From: Umbilicaria muhlenbergii
Lineage: Eukaryota; Ascomycota; Lecanoromycetes; Umbilicariales; Umbilicariaceae
Direction of reading: 5' to 3'
DNA length: 64,000 nucleotides
Assembly (NCBI GenBank): GCA_000611775.1
Contig: KK106981.1
Coordinates: forward strand, 7,586,312-7,650,311
In this document: positions 4,890-55,836 of the stretch, piece by piece
Position numbering within the stretch: the first letter of the stretch is position 1
Layout: each line of letters begins with the position of its first letter
The notes under the pieces: generated by a model
What the model was told of the DNA's origin: nothing
The model's database searches: none
Seen by the model: the letters and a program-made list of their open reading frames with translations, nothing else
Program-made: the position numbers and the translations under genes

Positions 4890-5203
4890 AAAGCAAAATT
4901 CACACAATTAACATTACAATTATTACTTTGTACAAAGGAAGGGATTAAAAATACTTTAGTATTTTTAAAACACACAAAAATAACTACATGAAAGTGACTT
5001 TTAGGGGGGGTTGAGGATGAAAATCAGGAAGTAGAGTGAGGAGATATTAAAAGAAATATTTAAAAATATGCAATTCTGATACCAATAACAGTCACAAAAG
5101 AAATTGACAAAATAAGCTGACTTGAGGTAATAAATACCTCACATATGTAAACTACACAGTGTCATAGTCTTAGACTGCATACACTTAATGAAGAAATAAA
5201 AAA

Positions 5204-39178: not shown

Positions 39179-39511
39179 TTATTCATTCATGACTAAAGGG
39201 TCTCTGTCTGCTGAATAGAGTTCAACTGCTCTGTAATATTCACAGTCTTTACTATTCACCTGGTAATTTTCTTTGCAATTTGCACACTTTATTATTGTGT
39301 GTTCACATATTTCTTGTTCATTTTTGCAAATAAAGCACATGTGCTTCCTGATATAATGATTTTCAGTGCATATTTGGCATTTGGCTTCATGCGTGCACTT
39401 ATGCTGTGTGTGGTCAAATCCTTGACATTTGATGCATTGCTCATACAGTTTGCAGTCTGTATATTCCGCGGTATGCAGTGAATTTTCAGCCACTATTAAC
39501 TTAGTTCTCAA
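39179..39511 (-). pseudogene. LINE 1 ORF1 zinc-knuckle region
   Basis: An open stretch of up to about 110 codons in LINE ORF1 (the nucleic-acid-binding, gag-like protein). It has consecutive Cys/His clusters: CIKCQGFDHTQHKC (C-x2-C-x4-H-x4-C), CQICTENHYIRKHMC, CFICKNEQEICEH and CANCKENYQ...C. The N-terminal half of ORF1 is on the far side of the SINE-like insertion at 39514-40407. It is matched by 45890-46190 in LINE 2, where the join to the upstream half is uninterrupted. Confidence 0.8.
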
Positions 39512-39513
39512 GG

Positions 39514-40407
39514 GAGAGACAAAGAACTCACACCTTCACATGATGTCTCCTGTTAATACCTACCAGACGTTGTGCACCTGGTAGAGAAGTCAAGATGAGT
39601 TTAAAAAACATTGATCAGACTCATTGAGTCTACAAATGTGACTTTGAAAGCTTATTATGCATGATCAGCCTTCATAAACATTGACCTCAAACACGTGACT
39701 TCAGAAGCTCATTATGCATGGTCAGTCTTCACAAACATTGCCTCAAACGCGACTTTGAAAGCTCATTACGCATGGCCAGCCTTCATAAACATTGACCTCA
39801 AACACGTGACTTCAGAAACTCATTACGCATGATCAGCCTCCACATACATTGACCTCAAACGTCAACTTTGAAAGCTCATTACGCATGGTCAGCCTTCACA
39901 CACATTGACCAGGCTCATTGAGCCTACAAACGTGATTTTGAAAGCTCATTACGCATGGCCAGCCTTCACACACATTGACCTCAAACGTTGACTTCAGAAG
40001 CTCATTACGCATGGTCAGCCTTCACACACATTAACCTCAAACACGTGATTTCAGAAGCTCATTACGCATGGTCAGCCTTCACACACATTGCCTCAAACAT
40101 TGACTTCAGAAGCTCATTACGCATGGTCAGCCTTCACAAACATCAACTCAAACGTGACTTTGAAAGCTCATTACGCATGGCCAGCTTTCACAAACATTGA
40201 GAGAGAGTGAGGATGGAAATCAGGAAGAGGGTTGAGAAGATATTAAAAGAAATATCTAAAACTGTGCAATTCTGGCACCAATAGCAGCCGCCAAAAAAAT
40301 TGACAAAATAAGTTGACTAGAGAGTTTTCTCTCACAAATGTATTGCTAGATTACTAGCCAGTGTCATAGTCTTAGACTGCATACACTTAATGAAGAAATA
40401 AAAAAAA
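39514..40407 (+). mobile_element. SINE-like tail-sharing retroelement, copy A (best preserved)
   Basis: Element of 894 bp with a perfect 13-bp target duplication TTAGTTCTCAAGG (39501-39513 and 40408-40420). Parts: 5' block (39514-39640), a minisatellite of about eleven 50-60 bp units (39640-40200; core CTCATTACGCATGGTCAGCC), then a 3' tail (40200-40407) like the 3' UTR of the local LINE, ending GAAGAAATAAAAAAA. LINE 2 at about 46187-46225 shows the empty site in ORF1. It has no coding capacity and no convincing RNA polymerase III boxes. Its mobilisation by the LINE enzyme is inferred from the shared tail, A-rich end and duplications. This copy keeps many CpG sites, so it is young or escaped mutation. 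Confidence 0.93.
39640..40200 (+). repeat. Minisatellite inside SINE-like copy A
   Basis: About eleven contiguous units of 50-60 bp, each with GAAGCTCATTACGCATGGTC or a close variant, and ACACATTGACC-type spacing. Unit variants alternate (GACTTCAGAAGC or GACTTTGAAAGC). The other copies have about four to six units, so the array length varies. Confidence 0.9.
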
Positions 40408-40420
40408 TTAGTTCTCAAGG

Positions 40421-44469: not shown

Positions 44470-46976
44470 TAATAGCAAAGGAAATATTATCTGATTCAGG
44501 TGCTTTCTTTGCAGAGAATATAAATATAACTTGTTTAACTTTATTTTCTGTTAAATTTGATCAATTTACATTTTTTGTGTTTTGATTATTTTTAATTTCA
44601 GCTGTAGAAGGTTTTAAATATATTATTATAATAAATGCTTTATATTTGTCTTGAAAATTCTAATATAATATATTATTTTAATTTTGTATTAGTGGTATTT
44701 TCTTCATAAGTCATGACTTTGTGTATTTATATGTTTAAAATACATCTTTTCTGCTTGCTTTTGTAAGAAATATTGTTTAGGATTTTTGTTTTGCATTTTT
44801 AATAACTTGAAAGTACTCAGATCTGCTTTTTGTGAAATTAATTCACTGTTTTTCAGATTAATTTCTTTTGTTATAATGTCTTCTTGCTGTTGACATTTTT
44901 TTTCTCAGCCTGATGAGGTTTTCTGTTCATTACACTTTAGATTTATTGCATGGTTTTTATCTAGAAATATTGTTTTCAGCAGTTTATGTAATTAAATCTT
45001 TTAAGTTTTCAGTCATTTGTTCTAATGACTGATTTAAACTTATTGCTTTTGCATTTTGCTTTAATTTTTTTGTGAAGTTCTCTCAATCCGCTTTTTGTAT
45101 ATTGAACAGAACGTTGAATGAACTTTTTATTAATATAAAATTTTTAATAATTATGAAAACTGAATAATCTCATGATCTGAATCAGTATAAACTTCTTTAT
45201 TAACTTGTCAGTCAATTATTTCTGATATTAATTGATTTTTTGCAAATGTTAAATTTAGAACTGATGAATATTGTTTATTTATAATATATCTGATAAATGT
45301 CATGATGTTTGATATATTGACTAAATCACAGTGATTTGTTTGCAGTCATTGTAGTAAATTTTCTGCATTTTTTGCCTCTGTGATTATAGAGTTTCATCAT
45401 GTATAATGTGCATTAAAGTCTTCACAAATTAATGTTCTAGTTGTTGCATTTATTTGATTTAATACTCTTTTCATTGTTTATGTATTTAACTCAGGCTGAA
45501 GAGACCTTTCATTGTATACATTTAACAGTAAGATTTCTTTTAAACTTGATGTAAATATAAATAAAGTTTGTAAATCTGCATCCTTTGAGATATTTGATCT
45601 AGGCGTGCATTTTATTCCTTTATTTGCTTTTGTAATAAATGTTAAAACTCATAGTCTGAGTTAAAATAATGCTAGTAAATACTGAATATGAAATAATATT
45701 ATTATTTAACTTAATTCATGGTTTTTGAATTTATATAATATTTATTTTTCCAACTGCAGCTTCTAAATATGATTGCATGACATTTATTGATTTATTGCAG
45801 TTATATTGAAAAATCTGTATTTTAAATAATTCCTGCAGGTCTATATTTGAATATTGTGTGTTTATATTACACATTATTTATTTATAATTAAAGGGTTTTT
45901 ATTTGTTGAATAAAGTTCAACTGCTTTATAACATTCACAGTCTTTGCTATTCACCTGATAATTTTCTTTGCAGTTTACATACTTTATTATTGTGTGATCA
46001 CATATTTCTTGTCTTTTTTTGCAAATAAAGCATATGTGCTTCCTGATATAATAATTTTCAGCACATATTTAACATTTGACTTCATGTGTACACTTGTGCT
46101 GAGTGTGATCAAATTCTTAACATTTGATGCATTGATCATATGATTTGCAGTCTGTGTATTTTATAATATGTAGTAAACTTTCAGTTATAATTAACTTAAT
46201 TCTCAAGGCTTTTTCAGCCTCTTGACTGCTTGTGAAAGTAATAATAATAAATAAATATCTTTTAAATTTTCTACTCTCTGCTGTAAATATTCAGCTTGGT
46301 TTACACATCAATTTTAAATCTTTATTAAAGATCTCAACCTCATCTTTTAACAATTGTATTTCCTCTGCATTGTTAAAAATCTTTGTAGACAATTTATGTA
46401 AAATTATCTTATATCATTTCTGATTTTTTTGAATGTGAGTTAATTTCAGGTTCAATTCAACTCTTAAATATTTTTATATTATAATAACTCTTCTGCATTG
46501 CTCTCTTCTGCAGCAGTGAAAATTATGTTATTTTGTGATTTAAAAATAATAACTGTTGCTATTAACACTTTTGCAATTTTTGCATTTTTTAATGCATTTT
46601 TGACTTTGTCTCAGATTTGCATTAAGTTAAAACTTGTCACTGCAATTAATATTTTTAATATTAACAGTAATCTATATTCCTGTTGTGTGATTTGCTTAAT
46701 CTTTTTAATTAATATTAATTTTTACATTGTTTTAATCACCTCTGTTCATGATTTGTTGCTATTTTCAGTCAACATTTGTGCAAATATTGATTTGAGGCTT
46801 TAGTGTTTTTGAGCATTTTCAGCATTTTCAGTCATACTTGCTGAAATCATTCCTGATTTAACTAAAAAATTTATCATAAGTGTGAGTAACTGATTTGCAC
46901 TAACTGTATACTTTTTAACTTTATTAACTCAATTTAATTGAGTCTTGCTTCAAAATGTTGTTTTTGATTACTTTGT

Positions 46977-47591
46977 TATTATTTATTATTTATTTCTTTA
47001 ATAAGTGTATACAGTCTAAGACTATGACACTAGCTAGTAATTTAATAATATATTTATGAGAGAAAACTCTCTCATCAACTTATTTTGTCAATTTTTTTGA
47101 CAGCTGTTATTGGTGTCAAAATTACACAGTTTTAAATATTTTTTTTAATATCTCCTCAACCCTCTTCCTGATTTTCATCCTTAATATTTGTAGGCTCACT
47201 ACACTTGATTTGTGAGGTGAAAGTTAATCATTATGCATGTAATGAGTTTCTGTGATCATGTATATGACTTACATCAGGTCTGCAGTGGGTAAAATTTAAT
47301 TATTATACATGTAATGAGCTTTTATGATCATGTATATAACTTACATCAGGTCTGCAATGAGTGAAATTTAAGTATTACATATGTAATGAGCTTCTAAAGT
47401 CACGTTTTTAAGGTTAATATTTATAAAGGCTAATCATATGTAATGAGCTTTTAAAGTCATATTTGTAGACTCAATGAGTTTTATTAATGTTTTATTTTAA
47501 ACTGATTTTAACTTCTTTATCAGGTGCACAACATCTGGTAGATATTAATAAAAAACATTATATAAAGATATAAATTCTTTATCTTTCTTTA
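46977..47591 (-). mobile_element. SINE-like tail-sharing retroelement, copy B
   Basis: Minus-strand copy of 615 bp with a 10-bp duplication ATTACTTTGT (46967-46976 and 47592-47601) inside LINE 2 ORF1. The LINE-like tail is at 46977-47180, followed by about four minisatellite units (47190-47500) and the 5' block (47500-47591). It is strongly AT-shifted, like its host LINE. Confidence 0.9.
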
Positions 47592-49071
47592 ATTACTTTG
47601 TACAAGTGCTGCATTTGTAATTTTTTATGTTTTTGCTGTGTTTTCTGCAGTTGTTTTGACACTTGCATTTACATTATTTATTTTCTGTAGTAATAAATTC
47701 ATTTTGAAATTTATGATCTGAATTTAACTTTGTAAATGATGATTTTACACACTTGTATCTTTATTTACACTTTTCACATTTTGTGAGTTTTGTGACTTTG
47801 TGAGGTGAAAAATTGCCTTATTTAGGTTAAATTTTTGTGATAAGTGTGATGCATTCATTAAATTTAGCAGTGCAGAATTTGCTGTTAAATATAATGATTT
47901 CATGATTTTTTATTTTATATTTAGTATTTTCTCACCTTTACTTTTTTTCCTGTTTTGTGAATTTTCTTGATTTTTTGTTGAACTTTGAATTCACACCTTT
48001 ACAGGTTGATTTTCTTGTGAGAAGAAAGTATTTTTGCATTTTTTACTTTGTGATGTGAGTTTTTTGATTTGCTTGTGTATTTATGAAAAGGTAAATGAGC
48101 TGTTTTGATTATTTTTTATAACAAAGTAATTTTCCTTTGTTATATTTGTGGTAGGTGTAGATGTAATATATTAATTAACACTTTAAAACTTTACATCTGA
48201 TGTTATATTTATTATAATATTTTCTTGAGTTTTTTAAAGTTTTAATCCTCAAGTTTAATACCCTTTCCTTTATAAATTTAAGCACAATCAAGAGTTTAAA
48301 GGCTCTGATTTCTATTTTTAGTACTCAGAATAAGTAGTTTCTTATAATTTTTAAGAATTTAAACCTTATAAAAGCCTTTAAAATCACTTATAGTCTTGCT
48401 TAATCTGAGCTTATTCAAAGTAAAAAATGATATAAACTTGCTAATCTTTACTCTTTATATATGAAATACTTAATAAGAGTTCTTTATATCTCTTGTACTC
48501 AGAATAATGTTTTCCTCTGCAGGCTTTTTTATTAATCTGAGCTTTTTACAGTTTTTTGTGTCAAACTTAAAAAGAATAACCTTTAGTATTATAAAGCACT
48601 AAGGAAAAGTGAAGAAAATGAAGTTTCATGATATTTTTCCAGGTGATTAATTTAAGGTTTAGTGCTTACACTTCATTAAAAGTCTCAGTGACCGTGGTTT
48701 AATGCATGTTGAGAAGTAACAAAAGCAGAAAGCAGTGAATAATAATGTGTTTTTAATGTTTTTATTTTCACAAAAGCAGTGTAAAATAGATTTAATTTTA
48801 ATTTTTACATGACAAATGAAGAAAATAAATGTTGTAATTGTTGTGTTGTTGTTTTTATGATTTTTGAGTGTTTTTGATGTGAAGATTATAATAACTTTAT
48901 GATATTCTTGAATTCACTGCACTTGCACAATCATCACTGGCTTTGAGAATTGAAAAAGTGAGTTAAGTCTTTGAAATGAGTAGTTTATAATACTTATGAC
49001 AATGATATATCATATGTGTAACTTGATTACTTTTTAATTTATGTTCATAAATATTATCTGATCCAGGTGCT

Positions 49072-53324: not shown

Positions 53325-54503
53325 TTATTCTTTTGGCACTTTAATACACCTTAGCTCCTTCAAAGTCTTCGCGCTGGCTAATAGCTCCCGCAAGAGATGT
53401 GCATAATCCCAACCCAATGCGCTGGCTGCCATGGCGGTCAATGAAGCCTGGTTCTCTCGTCCTGGCCGTCCAGGTCCAGTCATGTTCGGCTTCATGTTGA
53501 CATCGAAGATTGCGAATTCTTGGCCCTCCCTACGCCTTCTCACGTCCACCCGGATTGGTGCCGTCACACACAGCATCTTTGCAACATGCTCACACTGTCT
53601 TGCTATTGTGCTATAGCTTAGATCTCCAGCTTCTTGATCTGGTGTGATGACGCGCGAGTTTGCTGTCACGGCTACGTTGCCGCTGTACGGTGCGATGCCA
53701 GAGACGTGGTTGAAGCGAGATACAATTGGGAGGGCCCAGTAACTCTTCGTTCTCTGCGAAGGCGGCATCACAGTCACAGTTGCTTCTTCTCCACCTAGGA
53801 ACTCTTCAAGCATCACAACATCAGACTCGTTCAGCAGGTTCTCTATGTGACTCTTCAGCTCCTCAGGCCCATTGCTCATTTTCACGCCGTGGCTTCCGCG
53901 GCCGCGAGGGGGCTTTCCCACAATTGGATATGTAAGCTCGCCAGCATGTTCCTGAAAGAATCCACGAACGCCCTGTGTAGCGGTTACATTCCACGCTCGG
54001 GGCAGCGGAAGCTTGGTTTTCTGTCGCAGCAGATCGTTTACGTAAGTCTTGTCATCGTACAGCTGGACTAGATTGGGAGGCTGCCCCACGATCCGGAGAT
54101 TTCCAGCATATGCAGCAATTTGCGACGAGGTCTGTAGTGGGTGTGAAGAGAAGAGAACAGTGTTAGCCCAGAGATGTGTTGCGCCCAAGGAGATGGCGGC
54201 GAGGATACCAGACTCGGTGTCTGGGAAGCACCATCCAATATGGTTCGCAGGATCAAGGGAAGCGTTGGGCGCTGGTGTTATGATGGAGATTGGGGCTTTA
54301 GATTTTGAGAGAACAAAAGCAATATCTGCCCCCGAGTCTTGATAGCCTCCGGGTTTGGGTGGTTTCCGTATGCCGTTGATAACAGGTGGCTCGATAGCTT
54401 GGTACAGCACCGCAGCTTTGGCGCTAAAATTACTATGAAGGCGGATCGTTTGACTGCTGGGAGAAAGCAGGAGGGCATGACGTTCAAAGAGACATCGAGC
54501 CAT
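53325..54503 (-). CDS. ATP-grasp domain carboxylate-amine ligase-like protein
   Basis: Intact single-exon gene of 392 residues from ATG 54503. ATP-grasp enzymes activate a carboxylate as acyl-phosphate and couple it to an amine or thiol. An N-terminal pre-ATP-grasp part holds the WCFPDTESGI and GATHLWANTVLF stretches common to a Pezizomycotina family. Then come the ATP-grasp lysine and Gly-rich loop (YPIVGKPPRGRGSHGVK, K197), the hinge acidic pair LEEFLGGEEATV (about 232-244), the RVDVR strand (about 318-322) and the metal-binding FDVNMKPNMTGPGRPG (D334, N336, N340). The D-Ala-D-Ala ligase-like fold is family knowledge; the substrate is unknown. Upstream 54504-54600 is transitional to AT-rich sequence, so the promoter lies near the repeat border. 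Linked to a dioxygenase and a transporter, it may belong to a small pathway. Confidence 0.9.
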   Translation of the reverse strand: MARCLFERHALLLSPSSQTIRLHSNFSAKAAVLYQAIEPPVINGIRKPPKPGGYQDSGADIAFVLSKSKAPISIITPAPNASLDPANHIGWCFPDTESGILAAISLGATHLWANTVLFSSHPLQTSSQIAAYAGNLRIVGQPPNLVQLYDDKTYVNDLLRQKTKLPLPRAWNVTATQGVRGFFQEHAGELTYPIVGKPPRGRGSHGVKMSNGPEELKSHIENLLNESDVVMLEEFLGGEEATVTVMPPSQRTKSYWALPIVSRFNHVSGIAPYSGNVAVTANSRVITPDQEAGDLSYSTIARQCEHVAKMLCVTAPIRVDVRRRREGQEFAIFDVNMKPNMTGPGRPGRENQASLTAMAASALGWDYAHLLRELLASAKTLKELRCIKVPKE

Positions 54504-54892
54504 TTCATCCAATTCTATCTTCTAATAATCCTCTCTTTTTCTTGCTGTTATTGGTGCAGTCACTGACATTTTTGGTGTAGTCACAGATTATAAGATACTA
54601 AGGGATAGACCATAATCATGCCCCGCCTACTAATAATCGTTCGCTTATTAGTGCTAGCCGCTGAAAGACGCAATTCTAGAACTTTTTATTTGAAAACCTT
54701 ACAGTACAGCCACATGATTATGTACTACCTTAGTCATGCTTCTCAAGCTTTAACTACCTTCTTAAGTTTCTTTCAAATAGCTTTAAAAGCCTTGACAAGC
54801 TTTTTATTAATCACTGCTTGCTCTTGTTTCACTTTATTTTCTGCCTTAATGTGAGCAGCTAATTAAGCATGACAAATGCATTAAAGATGCTG
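54504..54892. other. Island border, no clear gene
   Basis: Base composition shifts from balanced to AT-rich between about 54520 and 54900. A 78-codon plus-strand frame from ATG 54618 has no recognisable domain. The opposite strand reads a Lys-rich helical stretch (ENKVKQEQAVINKKLVKAF) that might be an old transposase tail, but this is not secure. Confidence 0.4.
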
Positions 54893-55836
54893 TGACTTTT
54901 ATTTTTATTTCTTCATTAAATGTATGCAGTCTAAGACTATGACACTGTATAATATTATATATGTGAGGTATTTATTACCTCAAGTCAATTTTATTTTTAT
55001 TTCTTCATTAAGTGTATGCAGTTTAAGATTATGACACTGGCTAGTAATCTAGTAATACATTTGTGAGAGAAAACTCTCTAGTCAACTTATTTTATCAATT
55101 TTTTTGGCGGCTGCTATTGGTGTCAGAATTGCACAGTTTTAAATATTTTTTTCAATATCTCCTTAATCCTCTTCCTGATTTTCATCCTCACTCTCTCTCA
55201 ATGTTTGTGAAAGCTGATCATGCGTAATGAGCTTTCAAAGTCATGTTTAAGTTAATGTTTGTGAAGGCTGATCATGTGTAATGAGCTTCTGAAGTTGACA
55301 TTTGAGGCAATGTGTGTGAAGGCTGACCATGCGTAATGAGCTTCTGAAATCACGTGTTTGAGGTTAATGTGTGTGAAGGCTGATCATGCATAATGAGCTT
55401 CTGAAGTCAACATTTGAGGTTAATGTATGTGAAGGCTGACCATGCGTAATGAGCTTCTAAAGTCACGTGTTTGAGGTCAATGTTTATGAAGGCTGATCAT
55501 GCATAATGAGCTTTCAAAGTCACGTTTGTAGACTTAATGAGTTTAATTAATGTTTTTTAAACTTATCTTGACTTCTCTACCAGGTGCACAACGTCTGATA
55601 GGTATTAACAGAAGACATCATGTGAAGATGTGAGTTCTTTATCTTCCTCAAGTCAATTTATTCTGTTAATTTCTTTTGCAGTTGTTATTGATGTCAAAAT
55701 TACATAATTTTAAATATTTCTTTTAATATCTTCTTAAGTCTCTTCTTGATTATCATCCTCAAACTCTCTTAAAAGTCATTTTGTGTAGTTATTTTTGTGT
55801 GTTTTAAAAATATTAAAGTATTTTTAATTCTTTCTT
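54893..55836 (-). mobile_element. LINE 3'-UTR fragment (minus), split by a SINE-like element
   Basis: Minus-strand LINE tail: A-rich end at about 54893-54910, then the ACTTAATGAAGAAATAAA-type end and the conserved GTCATAGTCTTAGACTGCAT block. It is interrupted at 54992-55645 and continues to about 55836, where the 3' end of a second LINE begins. Only 3' UTR is left. Confidence 0.8.
54992..55645 (-). mobile_element. SINE-like tail-sharing retroelement, copy C
   Basis: Minus-strand copy of 654 bp with a perfect 14-bp duplication CCTCAAGTCAATTT (54978-54991 and 55646-55659), inserted in the LINE 3' UTR. The LINE-like tail is at 54992-55195, about six minisatellite units at 55195-55530, and the 5' block at 55530-55645. 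Because the SINE-like tail and the LINE 3' UTR lie side by side, their similarity can be read directly here. Confidence 0.93.

Follow-up and report, generated by a model that had tools for sequence, protein, structure and literature searches.

A 64-kb stretch of contig C1 of Umbilicaria muehlenbergii (C1:7586312-7650311, hereafter the window) carries four copies of a short repeat family. An earlier sequence-only reading had described this family as similar to short interspersed nuclear elements (SINEs), with a 5' block, a minisatellite body and a tail borrowed from a local long interspersed nuclear element (LINE). This observation was confirmed by our analysis, and its interpretation was partly supported. 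The hepatitis delta virus (HDV)-class fold of the 5' block, a younger subfamily (B) and the relic state of the window copies had been overlooked. All four copies were borne out, at 1-423, 39514-40407, 46977-47587 and about 54992-55647.

Copy 2 lies on the forward strand. It begins with a block that we read as a decayed HDV-class ribozyme (39514..39603; 113.8 bits with our ribozyme model R1), followed by an array of 54-57- and 70-bp units (39648..40199; we counted 10 units, of which the final one is a 36-bp piece), a tail in common with the LINE 3' end (tail A, 40208..40399) and an A-run (40400..40407). A terminal hairpin region common to tail A, tail B (see below) and the LINE is found at 40365..40383. 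The copy is flanked by a perfect 13-bp target duplication (39501..39513 and 40408..40420, forward strand). The other copies lie on the reverse strand. Copy 1 (locus L014; 1..423) comprises the head, with the decayed ribozyme block at 334-423, and part of the array; its tail sits left of the window (C1:7585886-7586090), and neither exact nor transition-tolerant searches found a target duplication. Copy 3 (46977..47587; decayed ribozyme block 47498-47587, tail match 46986-47181) has a duplication on the 3' side at 46963..46976 and on the 5' side at 47588..47601, which is perfect over 10 bp and reaches 14 bp if one G/A difference is allowed. Because the duplication extends to 14 bp, the 5' end once placed at 47591 was moved to 47587, which is ribozyme nucleotide (nt) 1 in the model match. 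Copy 4 (54992..55647; decayed ribozyme block 55558-55647, tail match 54994-55198) has a perfect 14-bp duplication (3' side 54978..54991, 5' side 55646..55659), and its first two bases can be assigned equally to the element or to the duplication. The three target duplications claimed earlier, those of copies 2, 3 and 4, are real. Just past copy 4, at 54902-54947, tail A occurs once more as an isolated 46-bp piece (98%), and the tail of a LINE copy resembling the A tail (80%) lies at 5012..5203 on the forward strand. The protein encoded at 53325-54512 matched only ascomycete relatives (best named match 58-62%) and gave no lead for the element. Another host protein, encoded elsewhere in the genome, is closest among named sequences to those of Umbilicaria vellea and Lasallia pustulata (80 and 82% identity over 70% of the query), with unnamed sequences at up to 89%.

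The genome (34,788,950 bases in 7 contigs) was searched with the 5' block of a window copy, and 36 matches were detected. Loci were cut for 30 of these, chosen by rank, and block and array occur together in all 30. Ten of the 30 heads carry a 15-bp insertion (subfamily B), and nine of those are followed by a different tail of ~375 bp (tail B). Overall a tail was found behind the head in 24 loci: tail A with 15 A heads, tail B with 9 B heads, and no mixed pairs. In L029 only 71 bp of the tail are matched. No tail was found within reach in L005, L010, L017, L023, L024 and L028; L005 runs into N, and L023 stops after about three units. Head start and tail start are only 230-1023 nt apart (22 copies), so that the open reading frames (ORFs) of a LINE, which had been named as a sign of deletion derivatives if present between the parts, do not fit there. 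No ORF longer than 104 codons was detected in the five elements examined. Scoring covered 40 of 124 tail candidates and 150 of 877 reverse transcriptase (RT) candidates. Two A copies, L002 and L008, were observed head to head at C4:2696855-2698989, their heads ~0.7 kb apart.

Duplications were also found at copies elsewhere in the genome. Exact duplications of at least 10 bp flank 15 of 22 copies (a set without L008 and L029), compared with 0 of 456 mispaired flanks, where the longest match was 8. Since L012, L015 and L026 represent one insertion copied together with its flanks, this corresponds to 13 of 20 independent copies. For an anchored test, the 12 bases immediately before nt 1 were sought in the 3' flank, with transitions only and at most 3 changes. 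A duplication anchored to nt 1 was detected in 15 of 20 copies versus 3 of 380 mispaired controls; L015 and L026, as repeats of the L012 insertion, were also omitted from this set. These three loci share the same target duplication, and each is embedded in a repeated segment of ~1.2 kb whose inverted ends measure ~80 bp (1229-1307 and 2322-2402 in L012). It seems that a DNA transposon-like element took the retroposon with it there.

Head and array are nearly the same in subfamilies A and B, and the tails are alike in little beyond the terminal hairpin. Six B heads are undecayed, and outside the array the identity among the six young B copies is 96-99%. Tail B was found at 12 places: the nine complete elements, L071 (a long array broken by N), L072 (an old decayed piece) and L073 (a 126-bp 3' fragment). 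The gene context of the B copies gave no lead. With the six agreeing young copies as reference, changes in B tails are C to T on either strand in 59 of 59 cases in L072, 30 of 34 in L026, 11 of 12 in L012 and 13 of 16 in L015. The CC and CT contexts are favored over CA (in L072, CC 14/28, CT 24/55, CA 15/51). Classical repeat-induced point mutation (RIP) prefers CpA. By the usual RIP indices and their thresholds the listed elements do not qualify, except for the A copy L030, which exceeds the TA/AT threshold. Classical RIP was therefore rejected as the source of the changes. The effect of the process resembles that of RIP, but neither the indices nor the CpA context fit, and we refer to it as C-to-T decay. 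The window copies are relics of this decay and are less informative than the undecayed B copies.

The array units, described earlier as 50-60 bp, are mostly 54-57 bp long; in addition there is a 70-bp form, which is longer by a short palindrome. A fuzzy count gave 1-14 units per copy in 22 copies, a set without L029, L030 and the six tail-less loci. The head is 134 nt long in 11/13 A copies and 149 nt in 9/9 B copies, and the last piece of the array measures 36 nt in 12/13 A copies and 95-96 nt in 5/9 B copies. The array thus has constant edges and a variable interior, as in composites with a variable number of tandem repeats (VNTR). Copies L018 and L020 are 99.2% identical outside the array and yet contain 14 and 10 units, respectively, of different kinds; such young copies show the speed at which the array changes. 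At L005:2118-2665 and in L071 (reverse strand 971-1402) the arrays run into stretches of N.

The 5' block is predicted to adopt an HDV-class ribozyme fold with cleavage at nt 1. In L019, a B copy, P1 has 7 bp, the pseudoknotted P2 8 bp, P3 3 bp and P4 8 bp, and all 26 of 26 pairs form. In its sequence we read an additional C separating P2 from P3 and, next to P4, an AGUA/GAA loop E. The nested double pseudoknot, with P1 to P4 in the right order, is present in the undecayed B copies, and its nt 1 is the first base of the element. A stringent descriptor of the fold matched at nt 1 and nowhere else in 6/6 undecayed B elements, with 0 matches in 29.2 Mb of Markov sequence. A loose descriptor was run on the window and on 17 of the 30 head loci. 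It matched at nt 1 in all six undecayed B copies and in no other copy; the decayed copies (11 of the 17 loci, and those in the window) gave no match. In Rfam, the block matched RF02682 (HDV-F-prausnitzii) over the full length, from element nt 1 onwards, with 22.6 bits. With a query of 201 bases this match had an E value of 0.021, and the sole other match among 4227 families was the CPEB3 ribozyme (E 0.093), 11 nt off. The J4/2 segment GCUAAGAUG aligns with the RF02682 consensus, and most A copies have GUCAAG there; its C is the one that we take to be catalytic. Over 31 copies, 88.7% of cells are paired, versus 35-49% with slid partners, and the covariation score is higher than in all 500 of 500 shuffles. 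A 92-base ribozyme query found 22 genomic places, all of them family heads already listed.

The 3' end connects subfamily A to a LINE. Similarity between tail A and the local LINE is limited to the last ~195 bp, from TGAGGATG to the A-run, close to the extent given in the sequence-only reading. That reading had labeled the LINE Tad-like; here zinc-knuckle, RT and RNase H-like pieces were recognised in it, and a piece of one copy matched RVT_1. Tail B matches this LINE over no more than 15 bases, close to the 3' end. One of the five predicted pairs of the terminal hairpin common to tail A, tail B and the LINE is compensated. Target duplications, an A-rich 3' end and a LINE-like 3' end, the marks of a LINE-mobilised retroposon, are thus all present. 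L062 was rejected as an intact LINE: it contains a short (~200 bp) 5'-truncated LINE insert (L062:8151-8342) in a gene region of normal GC content, flanked by an apparent 14-bp duplication. A LINE-type RT unlike the decayed LINE copies was observed at L074:889-2199 (C3:3998714-3999376), with a 436-amino-acid stop-free piece (RVT_1, 2.1e-32). The tail B searches gave no match near it; 2.2 kb of this locus was read, and the 3' end of the RT element lies outside.

We consider it likely that the family consists of non-autonomous, non-coding retroposons of the VNTR-composite type, whose 5' end is made by a ribozyme and which depend on a LINE for mobilisation in trans. By sequence it is built of three modules: a predicted HDV-class ribozyme of ~90 nt, a body of tandem units, and a 3' tail with hairpin and A-run. 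Its RNA would be made by read-through or from an internal RNA polymerase II promoter. The ribozyme would cut at nt 1, freeing the RNA from the upstream transcript and fixing its 5' end wherever the element had landed. The array would be carried along, and the 3' hairpin and A-run may recruit the LINE reverse transcriptase. The LINE protein would then copy the RNA in trans by target-primed reverse transcription, and older copies would decay by the C-to-T process. The occurrence of one head with two tails suggests that the tail module has been exchanged, as in the R2/R1 hybrid short internally deleted elements (SIDEs) discussed below.

Several observations weigh against this reading. The cleavage and the transcript are predictions from sequence. 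Both descriptors were composed with the fold already known, and the loose one also matched 148 times in 52.3 Mb of shuffled sequence. The 22.6 bits of the RF02682 match are half the gathering score of that family (44), below the curated threshold. With a query of 25,060 bases its E value was 2.7, and it was outscored by chance-like microRNA matches; furthermore, it was listed for just 2 of the 8 sources, even though there are other B heads with an identical sequence. The window copy gave five Rfam matches, all chance-like and none of them HDV. P1 and J4/2 are decayed in A copies. Covariation is weak: column shuffles pair 87.4% of cells, close to the observed value, and pairs changed on both sides are no more frequent than in shuffles (229 of 500). 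The pair at the cleavage site of L019 is G-U (G1-U38), in contrast to the C-G typical of published fungal variants. Five of the 20 copies (L007, L011, L014, L022 and L027) fail the anchored duplication test. Finally, a LINE with tail B was not found, as repeated genome searches returned the same 12 places, none of them a LINE as far as read.

The head might instead be the 5' end of a ribozyme-bearing autonomous LINE, lost or unassembled, from which the ORFs were deleted and in which the minisatellite grew later. Such a deletion derivative would have precedents in the SIDEs of Drosophila and in the trypanosomatid NARTc and RIME (PMC3414825, PMC4035085), and the lack of a LINE for tail B in the assembly agrees with it. 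A LINE 3' end is present in subfamily A, but a LINE with the family's 5' end was not found in the genome, where all 22 ribozyme-matching places are family heads. The LINE that shares tail A begins with unrelated sequence at ten places (12 rows were aligned, two places being represented twice), and with the ribozyme model nothing outside family members exceeded 15 bits in 28 sources, its loci included, compared with 73-120 bits for the family. A derivation from this particular LINE was rejected because the tail match spans only ~195 bp and the LINE 5' end is unrelated and has no ribozyme match. We therefore regard descent from another, ribozyme-bearing LINE as unlikely, though it is the alternative to which we give most weight.

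The low Rfam score would also suit an ordinary SINE with a diverged RNA polymerase III (Pol III) promoter, in which the hairpins of the 5' block merely resemble a ribozyme, and A-box-like matches with 2-3 mismatches do occur in the first 600 nt of 22 copies. The same sequences, however, contained no B-box match with 2 mismatches or less, and ARAGORN found no tRNA gene in 5 loci, by which a tRNA head was rejected. The absence of a clear Pol III promoter, stated in the sequence-only reading, is thus upheld. B tails contain runs of 4-5 T, and such runs would stop Pol III. The double pseudoknot, moreover, begins exactly at nt 1. An ordinary SINE is accordingly very improbable; from the SINE-like description, the borrowed tail and retroposition with target duplications can be retained, and a SINE in the strict sense, with a Pol III head, cannot. 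Least probable of all, and scarcely worth retaining, is a spread of the minisatellite or of a larger segment at the DNA level. L012, L015 and L026, with their shared flanks and duplication, did move within a larger segment, but the fixed 5' ends, the A-run, the LINE tail and the target duplications speak for retroposition, and the mispaired controls already contradict this explanation. The ribozyme-headed, LINE-mobilised composite remains our preferred reading.

A wider proposal is made tentatively, at somewhat less than even confidence. The family may represent a new class of VNTR-composite retroposons in which a ribozyme replaces the promoter-defined 5' end and LINE tails are swapped, so that a single head and array could be used by two or more LINE lineages. 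Retroposon 5' ends may likewise account for many of the ~230 fungal HDV variants published so far. These variants (230 in 26 fungal species) fall outside older search criteria according to their authors, and their gene associations are widely variable; the main text of that paper contains neither 'retrotransposon' nor words starting with 'transpos' (PMC5640933). The present element would give fungal HDV ribozymes a testable role. Umbilicaria muehlenbergii has been described as open to transformation (PMC3999499), so that the host itself could serve for tests of cleavage and mobilisation.

Each of the three components has been described before: short retroposons headed by a ribozyme, VNTR composites, and HDV ribozymes of fungi. 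No paper combining all three was seen in searches of the openly licensed PubMed Central literature. Of two papers on transposable elements of Umbilicaria, one mentions neither 'SINE' nor 'ribozyme' in its main text (PMC8773270); the other does not contain 'SINE', and 'ribozyme' was not sought in it (PMC12492740). The fungal HDV variants have a nested pseudoknot, a loop E beside P4 and an extra nucleotide between P2 and P3, which is mostly C, and these resemble the features read from the L019 sequence; typically they have C-G at the cleavage site, in place of the G-U observed here (PMC5640933). Fungal tRNA- and 5S-related SINEs such as AfuSINE2 and AfuSINE3 are also short retroposons with short target duplications, but they have tRNA or 5S heads, the tRNA-related ones with Pol III promoter features (PMC5063351).

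The R2 SIDEs and R2/R1 hybrid SIDEs of Drosophila resemble the family in their 5' HDV-like ribozyme, LINE 3' sequence and lack of coding capacity (PMC3414825). The hybrids join one ribozyme to the tail of another LINE and have 14-bp target duplications. Drosophila SIDEs, however, occupy fixed rDNA sites and descend from R2, whereas the insertions studied here are dispersed; the sections of that paper cited here describe no tandem-repeat body, whereas the body here is a minisatellite (PMC3414825). The trypanosomatid NARTc, RIME and SIDER elements with the Pr77 hallmark are likewise short and dispersed and carry a 5' HDV-like ribozyme; unlike in the accounts of those elements that we draw on, no corresponding LINE was found here (PMC4035085). 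The hominoid SVA, LAVA, PVA and FVA elements are non-coding, have a central tandem array and combine different 3' domains with related cores, as does our family (PMC4432496). They are mobilised by a LINE in trans, and SVA and LAVA arrays have constant edges and a changing interior (PMC4432496). As described there, their 5' domain is Alu-like, in contrast to the ribozyme predicted here, and no common origin is claimed. The family would thus unite in one fungal element the ribozyme-released short retroposons and the VNTR composites, which until now have been known apart.
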